A stretch of DNA of 64,000 nt from a virus. The notes under the pieces are model-generated. The model worked only from the letters and a program-made list of their open reading frames with translations. It was not told where the DNA came from and did not search any database. Numbering within the stretch: position 1 is the stretch's first letter; the number at the start of each line of letters is the position of its first letter. The DNA lies in IMG/VR virus record IMGVR_UViG_3300034407_001956, positions 30,370 through 94,369 of that record; one strand, given 5' to 3'. The position numbers and the translations under genes were made by a program. Below are positions 32,814 to 62,445 of the stretch, in pieces.

Positions 32814-32885
32814 GCGAGTATCGTATAATGGTTATTACCTTAGCCTTCCAAGCTAATGATGTTGGTTCGATTCCAACTACTCGCT
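32814..32885 (+). tRNA. tRNA-Gly (anticodon TCC)
   Basis: Acceptor GCGAGTA/TACTCGC, anticodon stem TTAGC/GCTAA with loop CTTCCAA, and T-arm GTTGG TTCGATT CCAAC, discriminator T. No CCA is encoded. It is 72 bases and reads GGA codons. Confidence 0.9.
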
Positions 32886-32914
32886 CAAAAATTTATAAAA
32901 ACTAAGGAGTAAAA

Positions 32915-46789: not shown

Positions 46790-47275
46790 GAAAAGTGCAG
46801 AGAGTAATTAACTCTGTATGGGATTGGTCGAATAATGAGTAGATGATGAAGCTCATAAGACAATCTAATGTGAGTTGTGGTGACTTGGAACTCTGCTAAA
46901 TGTAGTAGAGGTGTAACGGTCCTCATAGACATATGACACATAATGTACTTTCAGAAACTAAACGTTGATTCGTTGACCTTTTTATGGGTAAGGGTAAAAC
47001 CGAAATCCCATCTTGTGGCTGAATAATTTAGTCTCAGAGAGATAAGGCAATATCACAGACATTGTAGTCGCTCTAACGTAGAATTAACCATCTATTAGGA
47101 GAACCAGTATAACTTCTGGGTGATAGGTAAAGGGTAATAAAAATCTGAGCTGAAAGTTGTAGGTATTCAATAATCCTACATCCCCCTAATTTTCAATATT
47201 ATATAAAAAGGGTTCGACCGATTTTTAGTTTCCACTTTCTTAAAACTTTAAAAACTACAGAACCCTTTTTTATTT
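46790..47275 (+). ncRNA. Candidate structured RNA with terminator-like end
   Basis: The 46701-47339 gap holds no convincing gene. It contains stems CAGAG/CTCTG (46798-46815), GATTG/CAATC (46822, 46861) enclosing ATGAG/CTCAT, an 8-bp hairpin CTCTGCTA/TAGTAGAG (46891-46910), CCAG/CTGG (47105), TGTAGG/CCTACA (47158-47180) and a terminal 11-bp stem AAAAAGGGTTC/GAACCCTTTTT (47205-47270) ending in a T run. A palindrome TGTATC...GATACA at 46746-46763 may be an operator. No known RNA family is recognised. Confidence 0.5.
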
Positions 47276-47545: not shown

Positions 47546-47689
47546 ATGATGAAAGAGACTTTAAGAACCATTTTGTTACTATTCGTTTTAATAACAGACA
47601 ATGCTGGTGCTACTAATCTTAAAAAAAATAAAAAAAACTTAAAAAAAGGCTTGACTCATATTGCATTTTGTTTGTATGATCAGGTATGA
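47546..47689 (+). CDS. Possible short exported peptide
   Basis: A 47-codon frame starting about at the predicted transcription start, with a hydrophobic signal-like stretch (LLLFVLITDNAGA) and a Lys run. It reads through the next promoter and may be spurious. No ribosome site is available if the promoter is correct. Confidence 0.25.
   Translation: MMKETLRTILLLFVLITDNAGATNLKKNKKNLKKGLTHIAFCLYDQV
47651..47680 (+). promoter_or_regulatory. Sigma70-like promoter (TTGACT-18-TATGAT)
   Basis: TTGACT at 47651-47656, TATGAT at 47675-47680, in the family context AAGGCTTGACTCATATTGCA. It drives the VWA gene. Confidence 0.72.
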
Positions 47690-47703
47690 GAAAAAGGGAA
47701 AAT

Positions 47704-49803
47704 ATGAAGAAGATAAAAAACTTTAATCCAATGGCTCTCAGAGAGAAATACTCTGTGGGTTCTTCTAATAAAAAAAATAACTACTCTTCTTTTTGGTTGG
47801 ATAATGATTGGGATAATAACTCTTCAATCTTTGATGACGAAACAGATAAAAAGAAAGGTGTTGATTTAGTTGCTTTGGCTTCTTATAGAAGAGCCATTAG
47901 TAACTTTGTTTCTATTGTGACTGGTGAATCAGACATCAAAGTGACTTTCAAATCTAGTGGAGATAGTTATACTGATGGTAAGGCTGTCACTATCTCATCT
48001 AAATTAGATGACAAATTATTTGATTCTACTGTTGGTTTGGCTCTTCACGAAGGTAGTCACATTAAACTATCAGACTTTGATTTTCTAAAACAACTCTCCA
48101 ATAACATTCCACAGGAATATATTAAGAGGGCTGAGGTTTTTGGTTGGGATGCTTATGATGTAAAAGAAAAACTTAAAAACTTATTGAACTATGTAGAAGA
48201 TAGAAGAATTGATTATTTTGTCTTTTCAAATTCACCTGGTTATAAAGGTTATTATCATTCAATGTATGATAAGTATTTTCATTCAAAGATTATTGATAAG
48301 GCTCTTCAAACTGATGAATATACAGATAAAGATTGGGATTCATACATTTTCAGAATTATCAATCTCACTAATAAGAATTCTAACTTAGATGCTTTACCAG
48401 GTCTCAGAGAAATCAAAAATCTTATCTTCAGAAATGTAAAAAGTTTAGAATCTACTTCAGATGCTTTTGGTGTCGCACTTAAAGTATTTCACATTCTATT
48501 AGATAATTTAGATGTACCGGCTTCTAATCAATCAGAAAATGGTGATGGTGAAGAGTCTGAAGATGGTGAAAATGTTGAAGGTGGTGAGGGTTCTGGTGGT
48601 GCTGGTGGTGATGAAGGTTCTGAAACAATCTCAGATGAAGAGTTTAATGAGTCTTTAGAAAATGGTGTTGGTTCAGGTGATGGAGATGATTCTAAATCTA
48701 AGGTTGAACTTTCAGATGCTCAGAAAAAACAACTTCAAAATGCCATCAAAAAGCAAGATAAGTTTATGAATGGAGATATTCAGAAAAAGCAATTGACTAA
48801 AAAAGATAAAGCTTCGATGGATTCAGTTGAGTCTGCCGGAATGAGTTATGTTGATGTTGCTGGTGCTACTAATCGTTGGACTGGTAAAAAAGTTCCTACT
48901 AAAGTTTTGATGGTAAAGAAATTTACTAAAGCTCTGGCTGAGTCTGATACAATTGGTATGATTGAAAATCCTAATTACAAATGGTCTAGAGAAGAGTACA
49001 AAGAAGCTATCGCTAAAGGTTTAGTGATGGGTACTATTTTAGGTAAGAAGCTTCAGGTTCGTGGAGAGTCTCGTGAGACTAAGTGGTCACGTTTGGATAG
49101 TGGTCGTATTGATAAGAGATTGGTTGCTGAGCTTGGGTTTGGTAATGAGAGAGTTTTCAAAACTACTTTTACTGAGTCTTACTCAGATGCTTTTCTTCAC
49201 ATTTCTATTGATGCTAGTGGTTCGATGGGTGGAGATAAGTGGACAAATACTCAGACTTCTGTTGCCGCCATCGCTAAGGCTTGTTCAATGATTAACAATG
49301 TTGATTTGGTTATTTCTTACAGAAGTACTCAAAGTGTCGGTAATGGTTACAGAAATAGAAATGAATCAAATCCATTGATGATGATTGCTTATGATTCCAG
49401 AGTTGATAAGATTTCAAAGATTAAGAATCTGTTTCCTCTACTTCGCCCATCAGGCACTACTCCTGAAGGATTGTGTTTTGAGGCTGTAATGAAAGAAATT
49501 GAAGTTGGTTCTAATGATAAAGATTCTTACTTCCTTAATTTTTCAGATGGAATGCCAATGTTTAGTAATAATGACATTGATTATTACCATGACACCGCTA
49601 TCGACCACACTTCTAAAATGATTAAAGAGATTCGTAGTCGTGGTGTTAAGGTTCTAAGTTACTTCATCGGAGATGGTTATGACAGAGAAAATTCTACTTC
49701 AACTTTCAAAAAAATGTATGGTAATGGTGCTGCTTTTGTCGATGTGACTTCGGTATTGGCTGTGGCTAAGACAATGAACAAATTGTTTTTGGAGAAAAAC
49801 TAA
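47704..49803 (+). CDS. CobT-like VWA-domain protein with HExxH segment
   Basis: The start chosen is ATG 47704, because the promoter's start point (about 47687) leaves the ATG at 47686 outside the transcript. The 699-residue protein has HEGSH at residues 115-119 (HExxH) and VEDRRID about 45 residues on, a metallopeptidase-like region. An acidic linker and a C-terminal VWA domain follow, with MIDAS DASGSMGG at residue 503. Similar VWA/peptidase proteins occur in many T4-like phages, paired with the AAA ATPase encoded next. Vitamin B12 function is not implied; a role in proteolysis or complex remodelling is more likely. Confidence 0.8.
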   Translation: MKKIKNFNPMALREKYSVGSSNKKNNYSSFWLDNDWDNNSSIFDDETDKKKGVDLVALASYRRAISNFVSIVTGESDIKVTFKSSGDSYTDGKAVTISSKLDDKLFDSTVGLALHEGSHIKLSDFDFLKQLSNNIPQEYIKRAEVFGWDAYDVKEKLKNLLNYVEDRRIDYFVFSNSPGYKGYYHSMYDKYFHSKIIDKALQTDEYTDKDWDSYIFRIINLTNKNSNLDALPGLREIKNLIFRNVKSLESTSDAFGVALKVFHILLDNLDVPASNQSENGDGEESEDGENVEGGEGSGGAGGDEGSETISDEEFNESLENGVGSGDGDDSKSKVELSDAQKKQLQNAIKKQDKFMNGDIQKKQLTKKDKASMDSVESAGMSYVDVAGATNRWTGKKVPTKVLMVKKFTKALAESDTIGMIENPNYKWSREEYKEAIAKGLVMGTILGKKLQVRGESRETKWSRLDSGRIDKRLVAELGFGNERVFKTTFTESYSDAFLHISIDASGSMGGDKWTNTQTSVAAIAKACSMINNVDLVISYRSTQSVGNGYRNRNESNPLMMIAYDSRVDKISKIKNLFPLLRPSGTTPEGLCFEAVMKEIEVGSNDKDSYFLNFSDGMPMFSNNDIDYYHDTAIDHTSKMIKEIRSRGVKVLSYFIGDGYDRENSTSTFKKMYGNGAAFVDVTSVLAVAKTMNKLFLEKN

Positions 49804-49954: not shown

Positions 49955-50013
49955 TAGGTGTAATGAGAGAGACAAAAATTAACAATTCAAATCAAATAAA
50001 AGGAAAAAAAGAT

Positions 50014-51171
50014 ATGAATAAATCTGTAATCGTAAAAGTAGAGATGTCGGGCAATCGTTATAATGCCTTCGACAAAGATGGTGTGAAATACACATCAGCT
50101 ATGGGAACAGGCACTCGTAAGAGAGCTTACCAACAGGGTATGGCTTTGGAACGTAGGGTTGATAAAAATGGTAGGAATTTTTGGTGGAAAGTTCCAATGT
50201 CAGAATTTGAGGCTACTTGTGCTCCTGTCATTGATGTTTCATCAGTTGATATTCCTACAGAACATGCTGAGGTTCTTAACTTCATTCACTCTTCTTATGG
50301 TTTAAAACCGCAAGGTTTGGTTATGAAAGAGCTGAAGTGGAAGTATCTGATTCGTTCAGCTGTTCGTGGTAAGAATATTTTGATGACAGGTCCTGCCGGA
50401 TGTGGAAAAACTATGGCGGCTAAGTCATTGGTTAATTCACTTGATAGGCCTGATTACTACTTCAATTTAGGTGCGACACAAGATCCTCGTGCCACTCTGA
50501 TTGGTAATACTCACTTTGATAAAAAGAAGGGTACTTACTTTTCTGAGGCTTTGTTTGTAAAAGCTATTCAAACTCCTAACGCTGTTATTTTGTTAGATGA
50601 GTTGAGTCGGGCTCATCCTGATGCTTGGAATATTTTGATGACTGTCTTAGATAGTGGTCAGAGATATTTGAGACTTGATGAGGGTGAAGGTCAAGAAACT
50701 ATCAATGTGGCTGAAGGTGTGACTTTCGTTGCCACCGCTAATGTGGGTAATGAATACACTTCTACCAGAGTTATGGATAAGGCTTTGATGGATAGATTCA
50801 TTATCGTAGAAATGGATGTTTTGACTTCTGATGAAGAACATGGCTTACTGAATTATATGTTTCCGCATGTTGATTCAGACTTACTAAAGTCTGTTGCTGA
50901 GATTGCTTCTTCAACTCGTAATGAGTCAAAGTCTGAAGCTGGTAGATTGTCGGGTGGTATTTCAACCAGAACTTCGGTTGAGATTGCTGGACTTCTCTTT
51001 GATGGTTTCGGATTAGATGAGGCGGCTGAAGTGACTGTCTATCCTCAGTTTTCTGATGATGGTGGGCTTGAGTCTGAAAGAACTTATGTGAAGCAGCTTG
51101 TTCAAAAGTATGTTTCTGATGGTTCTTCTGATGACTTGTTCAATGAAGATGAAGTTGAGAACGCTAACTAA
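50014..51171 (+). CDS. CobS/MoxR-like AAA+ ATPase
   Basis: The start chosen is ATG 50014 behind AAAGGAAAA, since the promoter begins transcription near 49961. The 385-residue protein has Walker A GPAGCGKT at residues 126-133, Walker B VILLDELSRA near 191-200, sensor FVATANVGNEYT and arginine-finger-type LMDRFIIVEMD. It is the ATPase partner of the VWA protein, as in MoxR/VWA and CobS/CobT pairs. An N-terminal 90-residue domain is phage-specific. The pair probably remodels or inserts metals into host or phage complexes. Confidence 0.85.
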   Translation: MNKSVIVKVEMSGNRYNAFDKDGVKYTSAMGTGTRKRAYQQGMALERRVDKNGRNFWWKVPMSEFEATCAPVIDVSSVDIPTEHAEVLNFIHSSYGLKPQGLVMKELKWKYLIRSAVRGKNILMTGPAGCGKTMAAKSLVNSLDRPDYYFNLGATQDPRATLIGNTHFDKKKGTYFSEALFVKAIQTPNAVILLDELSRAHPDAWNILMTVLDSGQRYLRLDEGEGQETINVAEGVTFVATANVGNEYTSTRVMDKALMDRFIIVEMDVLTSDEEHGLLNYMFPHVDSDLLKSVAEIASSTRNESKSEAGRLSGGISTRTSVEIAGLLFDGFGLDEAAEVTVYPQFSDDGGLESERTYVKQLVQKYVSDGSSDDLFNEDEVENAN

Positions 51172-59141: not shown

Positions 59142-59291
59142 ATGTTAGATTTAGAATGGGTATTAGATTCTTTGAAAGAAGCTAGAGACAATGAAGATTG
59201 GGATTTAATAAAAGAAATAATATCTTATATAGAAAGTCGTGACGACTTTAATGATGACGATAGTTGGTCGGAACATTTAGAAAATATTTAA
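59142..59291 (+). CDS. Small acidic protein, unknown
   Basis: A 49-residue acidic peptide after TGGAG. It is helical (WVLDSLKEARDNEDWDLIKE) and ends four bases before the predicted tmRNA. CTATTTAT stands 30 bases ahead. Coding is probable. Confidence 0.45.
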   Translation: MLDLEWVLDSLKEARDNEDWDLIKEIISYIESRDDFNDDDSWSEHLENI

Positions 59292-59295
59292 ATAT

Positions 59296-59702
59296 GGGGC
59301 TGTCATTGGAAATCGACAGGTGTTTTTTGAAAATAGAGTGCAACGGAGATTGAGTAGGTCTCGCTAAAAAAAACTCACCAAACTGAAATGGCGATAATTC
59401 GCTTGACGGGTTGGACATTGATTGGCATTTAGCCGAGTATGATTACTCAGCTGCTCCAATCAGCCGTAAGGCAGATGTTCAGCAAACTTACGCTTACGCT
59501 TAAGTTACTGAGTTGTCTAACACTCGGTCATAAAATAAGTTAGACAAACAACTCTTACATATGAGTATAAAGATGTACGGAGCTATCCAATAAAATAGCT
59601 GGTGTGTTGCAGGTACTGTCTCAGAGGGTTGGAACCTGATAAGTTGTGAATGACTTTTTTGATAATACAGACTGGACAGGGGTTCGATTCCCCTCAGCTC
59701 CA
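59296..59702 (+). ncRNA. ssrA: tmRNA (ssrA)
   Basis: The 5' end GGGGCTG pairs with CAGCTCC at the 3' end (one G-T), and the 3' half holds a T-arm AGGGG TTCGATT CCCCT. The 5' end also has GGAAATCGACAGG, the D-loop-like tmRNA signature. In between lie AT-rich helices and a short reading frame. Starting at GCA 59471 this frame encodes ADVQQTYAYA and stops at TAA 59501. Length is about 407 bases. The CCA end is not encoded (CACAAA follows). tmRNA frees stalled ribosomes and tags incomplete proteins. Confidence 0.85.
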
Positions 59703-59720
59703 CAAAATTAAGGAAATAAA

Positions 59721-61121: not shown

Positions 61122-61193
61122 GCGGGTGAAGTGTTATAGGAAACACACTTCGATTCCATCGAAGAGATGTAGGTTCGACTCCCACCACCCGCT
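61122..61193 (+). tRNA. tRNA-Gly (anticodon TCC), second copy type
   Basis: Acceptor GCGGGTG/CACCCGC, D-stem GTGT/ACAC, anticodon stem CTTCG/CGAAG with loop ATTCCAT, T-arm GTAGG TTCGACT CCCAC with one mismatch. No encoded CCA. It has the same anticodon as the tRNA at 32814 but otherwise differs. Confidence 0.85.
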
Positions 61194-61251
61194 CAAAATT
61201 TTGGCCAGCGTGGCTACTTAATAATTGAAAATTAAATAAAGAGAGTATAGT

Positions 61252-62445
61252 ATGGGATTCGGAGATTTCTTTGACGAACCAAAATTCGACTTTGATAAAG
61301 AAAAAAAGACATTTGTAGATAATCTAAATCTACTTAAAACAATGTCGGTTCAAGAACAAACATTATATAAAAAGTGGCAAGAATTTAATGCTGATGTATA
61401 TTCAATGACTCAGAAAGCATCTAAATTTAAGAGAATTAATAATTCCCTTTGGATGCCAAAAGACATCAACAATAAAGAACAAACCATAAAAGAGATAGAA
61501 GCATTAGAACCTTATGTTGAAATGTTAGAGCAGGGTAATGCTAAGGATAATGAGACGTGGACATTGGTTCGTAGGTTGATTCATAGTATGGAGTTTACTG
61601 CCAATCCAGGCAGAAATATTAAGTTCTTTGTTAAAGATAAAGTAACCAATAAACTATTGGGTGTTATATGCTTGGGTTCTGATGTAACTTCGTTAGGAGC
61701 TAGAGATAAGTTTATAGGTTGGTCTTTAGATAATAAATTTAAAGATGGTAAATTAAAACATACTGCTATTGGTACAACCATATGTTGTTCTCAACCATTA
61801 GGATTTAATTTCTTAGGTGGTAAGTTAGTAGCCGCTTTAGTTACATCATCTGTAATTAGAGATGCTTGGAAGAAGTTATATGGACAAACATTAGTTGGTT
61901 TATCTACCACAGCTTTATATGGAATTCATTCTATGTACAACTCAATTCCACATTGGAAAACTATGGGTAAGTCAGTAGGTAGAATATCATTGAAGCCAGA
62001 TGATTCCACTTATGATGTATGGCATGATTGGGTAAGGGATAATATGTCAGAAGAGTATACAAAAGCTACCACACAAAAAGAGGGTGTAGCAGGTCCTCCA
62101 ACTGGCGTAAAACAAAAAACAATTAATATGATATTCAAAGCAGTTGGTATTAAACCATCTGATTATCAACACGGATTCCAACGTGGTATTTATTATGCCG
62201 ATATGTATGAGAATGGTAATCAGTTTTTGCGTGGGGAGATAGAAGAGAGTGATTTGAAAATGAAACCTAAGTACAATGATGATAGTGACTACATAATGAA
62301 TTGGTGGAAACCTAAAGCTATCAGAAGATATAGTAAGTTATATGATGAGGGTAGGCTAAAGCCTGAGAAACTTTTTTATGGAGACATTGTAGGTAAAAGT
62401 TGGGAAGAAGTAAAAGAACAATATTTAGGAGAAATTGGAAGATAA
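61252..62445 (+). CDS. DUF4338 (DruA-family) protein
   Basis: A 397-residue protein after GAGAG. The core RNIKFFVKDKVTNKLLGVIC, RDKFIGWSLDNK and later KKLYGQTLVGLSTTALYG with MYNSIPHWKTMGKSVGR follow the pattern of DUF4338. This family is the DruA component of the Druantia anti-phage system and has a GNAT-like fold related to Mom. Here it is carried by the phage, next to a possible nuclease. It may modify DNA, act in competition with other phages, or protect the phage genome. Confidence 0.68.
   Translation: MGFGDFFDEPKFDFDKEKKTFVDNLNLLKTMSVQEQTLYKKWQEFNADVYSMTQKASKFKRINNSLWMPKDINNKEQTIKEIEALEPYVEMLEQGNAKDNETWTLVRRLIHSMEFTANPGRNIKFFVKDKVTNKLLGVICLGSDVTSLGARDKFIGWSLDNKFKDGKLKHTAIGTTICCSQPLGFNFLGGKLVAALVTSSVIRDAWKKLYGQTLVGLSTTALYGIHSMYNSIPHWKTMGKSVGRISLKPDDSTYDVWHDWVRDNMSEEYTKATTQKEGVAGPPTGVKQKTINMIFKAVGIKPSDYQHGFQRGIYYADMYENGNQFLRGEIEESDLKMKPKYNDDSDYIMNWWKPKAIRRYSKLYDEGRLKPEKLFYGDIVGKSWEEVKEQYLGEIGR

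Follow-up and report, generated by a model that had tools for sequence, protein, structure and literature searches.

A one-piece tmRNA gene with a long predicted tag in a marine T4-like phage lineage

The 64,000-nucleotide stretch of viral DNA analysed here (the window) carries a one-piece tmRNA (ssrA) gene at positions 59296-59702, 407 nt in length up to the discriminator A. The gene and its parts, as well as the adjacent 49-codon ORF and the DruA-like gene described below, are on the plus strand. We consider it highly probable (roughly 0.82), as judged from sequence comparison, that this gene gives rise to a working one-piece tmRNA that is maintained in a lineage of marine T4-like phages, uses the SmpB protein of the host and adds a 37-residue tag starting with the GGC codon at 59390. 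The predicted anatomy, the alanine determinant and the long reading frame are shown by comparison with relatives, while the role of the tag would most likely be ordinary ribosome rescue followed by degradation by a host protease, with an extra block in the tag possibly guiding the latter. The long tag is the most unusual feature of the gene and was absent from the first-pass annotation.

ARAGORN, Rfam and 69 relatives agree on the identity of the gene. ARAGORN finds a single one-piece tmRNA in the 64-kb window (59296-59703), and the Rfam model RF00023 matches 59296-59705 over the whole model (1-374, E 4.6e-27). In a second search this copy was the sole tmRNA match above the cut-off in the entire 94,369-bp record. 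The gene order is standard and the ARAGORN class is tmRNA, not tmRNA*, i.e. the gene does not qualify as a permuted (two-piece) form. Among the features that define membership in RF00023, a 7-bp acceptor stem, T-arm, G3-U70 pair, pseudoknots PK1 and PK2, helices H5 and H2, and a tag reading frame are present. The CCA end is absent from the gene sequence, and the acceptor stem is followed by ACAA instead. The first-pass annotation had proposed a phage-borne tmRNA gene from its pairing ends, T-arm and GGAAATCGACAGG block. All three elements are found in the window tmRNA, and the model searches are in agreement with the proposal, since the ARAGORN call is positive and the RF00023 score of 74.4 bits is above the gathering score of 47. 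Covariation among relatives supports the same conclusion, and the phage origin is supported by the virus record itself with its T4-like DNA polymerase, helicase and ribonucleotide reductase genes. As 69 distinct full-length homologues occur in related phages, chance resemblance is excluded and the element is confirmed as a genuine tmRNA. The remark that phage tmRNAs are uncommon also matches a published survey, in which tmRNA was found in 402 of 18,146 phage genomes (about 2%) and one-piece forms were rarely marine (PMC9004378).

The relatives were collected by a neighbouring gene and by the tag itself. The downstream DruA-like protein (61252-62445), which is uninformative on the tmRNA, was used as bait, and 80 loci were returned and kept. 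Among the 61 bait loci that were checked, 21 have a tmRNA of the same family upstream of the DruA-like gene, 24 are without it even though at least 3 kb of upstream sequence is available, and 16 are too short to judge. A DNA pattern of the tag core gave 89 stretches, and the two approaches combined yielded 69 distinct full-length genes on marine-type phage contigs; the alignment (A1) contains 62 sequences. An exact DNA pattern of the 5' end gave no match in IMG/VR, and the ParB-like neighbour, used as bait, gave no confirmed relatives.

The secondary structure is well supported by this alignment. Of the 60 pairs predicted by RNAalifold, 32 show double-sided compensatory changes; they span the acceptor stem, T-arm, H2, H5 and S1 of PK2. 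The 5' strand of the acceptor stem, GGGGCTG (59296-59302), pairs with CAGCTCC (59695-59701) at seven of seven positions, and the stem is fully paired in all 69 homologues in at least five sequence versions (62 were counted directly; the other seven, of the GGGCCCG type, have a start offset of 1 nt and are fully paired from the first G). Its third pair, the alanine determinant G3·U70, is G-U in 62 out of 62 aligned sequences. The T-arm, AGGGG-TTCGATT-CCCCT (59678-59694), keeps its five pairs in all 62 sequences, with double-sided changes in four of the five, and the inner end of H2, GCAAC (59340-59344) paired with GTTGT (59643-59647), shows compensatory exchange between G-C and A-U in 17 of the 62 sequences. 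PK1 (59346-59377; S1 GAGAT/GTCTC, S2 TGAGT/ACTCA) has compensatory stems in the relatives, and each of the 62 sequences can form it, in many variants. The small hairpin GCGA-TAAT-TCGC (59391-59402) that covers the start of the tag recurs with compensatory changes, e.g. as GTGA/TCAC and ACGAA/TTCGT. H5, AACTTA/TAAGTT (59485-59506), which corresponds to RNAalifold columns 231-236/263-268 and shows double-sided changes, encloses the last part of the tag together with its stop codon. PK2 (59507-59546) consists of S1, ACTGAGT/ACTCGGT, with seven of seven pairs in all 62 sequences, and S2, TGTCTAAC/GTTAGACA, with 5-8 bp in all 62 and several sequence versions. The putative PK3-PK4 region (59547-59640), assigned by its position between PK2 and H2, is variable, conserved in parts, and present in at least two exchangeable versions among the relatives. 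A single helix, CCGAGT...ACTCGG, that the Rfam alignment places at the tag was rejected, as the relatives pair ACTCGG with ACTGAGT of PK2 and not with the tag.

The predicted tag reading frame comprises 37 codons (59390-59500), translated as GDNSLDGLDIDWHLAEYDYSAAPISRKADVQQTYAYA, and ends with a TAA stop codon (59501-59503); the alanine carried by the tmRNA is additional. The putative resume codon GGC (Gly, 59390-59392) is separated from PK1 by a 12-nt linker (59378-59389) with an A at position -4. Both properties match E. coli tmRNA, in which the resume codon follows PK1 by 12 nt and A86 (-4) is the main determinant of the frame (PMC2481249). The spacing is 10-13 nt and the A at -4 is present in all 62 sequences, the resume codon being GGC, GGT, AGC or GAC. 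The frame is open in 62 out of 62 genes, the stop codon is TAA in 58, TAG in three and TGA in one, and length changes preserve the frame: in 61 of 62 genes, codon 1 and PK2 are a multiple of three nucleotides apart, with the flanks spread over all three remainders. The single exception is most likely L148, in which an insertion follows the stop codon.

ARAGORN places the start of the tag 45 nt further downstream, at GAG 59435, and reports only a 22-aa part (59435-59500). One could thus envisage an ordinary phage tmRNA with a 22-aa tag, in which the preceding 45 nt are an untranslated insert with a hairpin; we consider this unlikely, but it is the alternative that survives best. Apart from the program call, it draws on the UAGCC that precedes GAG, which is similar to the UAGUC of E. 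coli and counts against an upstream start, and on the GCA (Ala) that L032 has at the position of GAG. The hairpin over the resume codon is an unusual feature that was also counted against the upstream start; in modelled tmRNAs, a 'helix m' close to this codon has been considered (PMC1168896). However, GAG 59435 is 57 nt from PK1 as opposed to 10-13 nt, ARAGORN begins the tags of homologues at differing places (VNDEPTYAYAA, GDYQPSYSYAA, EYDYS...), and most of the variation in the upstream codons is synonymous in the tag frame. When only relatives retrieved via the neighbouring gene or the 5' end are used, i.e. independently of the tag, the share of synonymous differences indicates coding constraint in the 15 codons omitted by ARAGORN (column permutation; codons 7-15, p = 0.0004; codons 6-15, p = 0.003; codons 1-15, p = 0.005), and frame 0 contains no stops as compared to 30 and 26 in the other two frames. 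Codons 1-6 alone, which overlap the conserved hairpin, give no clear coding signal (p = 0.27, larger set), so the exact resume codon rests on the PK1 spacing and A(-4), and the true one could differ by a codon or so from GGC 59390. The ARAGORN start is apparently a truncated tag call, and translation appears to resume upstream, at GGC 59390. Another candidate, the frame from GCG 59391 (AIIRLTGWTLIGI), was rejected because the relatives have stops in it.

Tags are usually 10 residues long, with a published range of 8-35 (PMC3968760), while those predicted for the present family have 34-42 residues and exceed 35 in 54 of 62 genes. Conservation is concentrated in two blocks, SLxGLxIDWHLA close to the start and a terminal QPTYAYA or QPTYAYAA, and the middle is variable. 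Owing to the search pattern with which relatives were gathered, IDWHLA looks more invariant than it is; relatives retrieved via the neighbouring gene or the 5' end also retain the motif, with conservative changes in L030 (VDWHLA) and L008 (IDWQFA) and a silent change in L046. In L173, L129 and L116 a compensatory pair of the tag-start hairpin (GGC/TCG to GGT/TCA) is silent in the protein, and therefore RNA structure and peptide seem to be under joint selection at the start of the tag. At 59408-59413, the GGG of the codons GGG-TTG is invariant in 66 out of 66 distinct sequences found by the pattern, which permitted GGN; this suggests a constraint on the RNA itself. Pfam and PDB searches with the tag gave no convincing domain or structure match, structure prediction of the tag alone gave a low-confidence model (pLDDT 61) with no secondary structure, and a tblastn search of 50,697 phage records gave one match only, at chance level.

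In 84,980 species genomes of bacteria and archaea, the tag-core pattern, an exact-match DNA scan that bacterial relatives with other codons could escape, was found on one contig only. This contig (NHIV01000037.1, our L177) was deposited under the MAG bacterium TMED198; it also carries the DruA-like gene and is of phage origin, and its presence in the MAG is likely a binning error or the trace of an infection. TMED198 was rejected as a host, since the matching contig is itself phage and binning is weak evidence of a host; the MAG's own tmRNA has a short tag, ADYGYAAAA. Two more distant loci (L071:1921-2266 and L082:2035-2368) have tmRNAs with ordinary short tags, GNEYQYMAVA and GNYNTYNVAYA, upstream of the same DruA-like gene. 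It is possible that such genes were the source of the long-tag form, or that they were acquired separately. In two other loci (L018:2437-2547 and L043:2437-2547) a tmRNA remnant consisting of the PK3-PK4 part only lies downstream of the same type of small ORF, which points to loss by internal deletion.

In the mechanism that we propose, host alanyl-tRNA synthetase would charge the phage tmRNA via G3-U70, and host SmpB together with the phage tmRNA would enter ribosomes stalled on broken mRNA. Translation would resume at GGC 59390, alanine plus the 37-residue tag would be added, and synthesis would terminate at TAA 59501. The tag would combine an inner block specific to the phages (SLxGLxIDWHLA), a middle that varies and a QPTYAYA/YAYAA end of the kind that is read by proteases, and the tagged product would be degraded by a host protease, with the extra inner block possibly acting as a guide. 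SmpB (PF01668) was detected neither in the record nor in nine relatives (73-216 kb; controls were positive and the contigs may be incomplete), so the phage tmRNA presumably uses the host SmpB. Likewise, no recognisable ClpP or Lon gene was found in the phage records that could serve as a dedicated protease. The roles suggested in the first-pass annotation, rescue during mRNA decay or retagging of host proteins, are reasonable candidates. More tentatively, SLxGLxIDWHLA might serve as a second signal and direct tagged proteins to a specific adaptor, protease or phage protein, in which case their fate would differ from that of host-tagged proteins; we regard this as doubtful.

Instead of tagging, the RNA might act as a decoy or regulator that titrates host SmpB or competes with the host tmRNA, the tag being unused. 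There is a precedent in phage DS6A, a TLD-only form of which inhibits the tmRNA of E. coli (PMC11915505), but the tag frame, the stop codon, H5, PK1 and PK2 are under selection in about 60 distinct genes and would be needless in a decoy, which makes this reading very improbable. A decaying host gene acquired by chance would agree with the relatives that have no such gene and with the PK3-PK4 remnants in L018 and L043, but can practically be dismissed, as the window copy is intact, compensatory and synonymous changes run across the lineage, and the only contig with the tag core in the exact-match scan of the species genomes is itself phage.

It is worthwhile to compare the phage gene, which we take to be a working tmRNA, to known systems. 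With the bacterial one-piece tmRNA (ssrA, RF00023) it shares the G3-U70 acceptor stem, the T-arm, H2, PK1, the 12-nt linker, H5 with the stop codon, PK2 and a putative PK3-PK4 region; it differs in the 34-42-aa tag, the conserved inner block, the hairpin over the tag start and in that no SmpB gene was found with it. The OM43 myophage Melnitz has a permuted two-piece tmRNA of the alphaproteobacterial type with a glutamine riboswitch, and Mosig is reported among the tmRNA-bearing phages with this riboswitch (PMC9004378). Melnitz and the related pelagimyophages are likewise marine T4-like myophages with tmRNA, but theirs is two-piece. The DruA-like neighbour protein of the window phage also occurs in the pelagiphages Mosig and HTVC008M, and no tmRNA was found near its gene in either. 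The mycobacteriophage tmRNAs (Bxz1 group, Wildcat) are phage-borne too, and in blastn the overlap with 50,697 phage records was limited to the T-arm end. RefSeq viruses were searched in a 2025 tmRNA database paper (PMC11915505). Finally, the phage tag resembles the mf-ssrA tag of Mesoplasma florum in its length and in its aromatic-alanine end (TYAYA or TYAFA as compared to NYAFA), and its end resembles the usual LAA as well. Mollicute tags are read by Lon in bacteria without ClpXP (PMC9382460); we see this likeness as a lead, not as a test.

The window thus holds a real but variant tmRNA, whose tag family would be longer than the published range within the open-licence literature. A large, uncultured marine lineage keeps a tmRNA with a phage-specific tag block that our searches detected neither in bacterial genomes (exact-match scan) nor among known domains, and the length of the tag together with this conserved block would argue for selection on the tag itself, beyond ribosome rescue. 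The question why phages carry tmRNA can now be put in a testable form, i.e. who reads the block? As ARAGORN, the standard program, shortens such tags, collections of phage tags may contain systematic errors.

The record (94,369 bases, a virus) encodes a T4-type DNA polymerase, a DnaB-like helicase, ribonucleotide reductase, PhoH, CobS- and CobT-like proteins and a peptide deformylase. The polymerase is nearest to that of Microcystis phage Mel-JY01 (46% identity), then to pelagiphage HTVC008M and cyanophages (31-33%), and the label 'marine' derives from the known relatives and from the TMED MAG contig. A manA RNA motif (RF01745, 64.7 bits) at 46983-47184 precedes the CobT-like (47686-49803) and CobS-like (49963-51171) genes. 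There are two tRNA-Gly(TCC) genes in the window, at 32814-32886 and at 61122-61194, the second of which lies 1.4 kb past the tmRNA and is retained in many relatives. The DruA/DUF4338-like gene (PF14236, 85 bits) encodes a protein whose conservation extends over many phage contigs and to pelagiphages, one cyanophage relative being annotated as 'methylcarbamoylase mom'; DruA is otherwise familiar from the Druantia defence system. The tmRNA starts 4 nt past the end of a 49-codon ORF (59142-59291), and its immediate upstream sequence has no promoter-like site in the forward direction, so the window tmRNA is probably co-transcribed with this ORF and cut from a longer transcript. Most of the other tmRNAs in the family look co-transcribed as well. 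In L105 (206-240) and L124, a consensus-like sigma-70 promoter, TTGACA-17-TATATT, ends 7 nt before the tmRNA and would give early transcription by the host polymerase.
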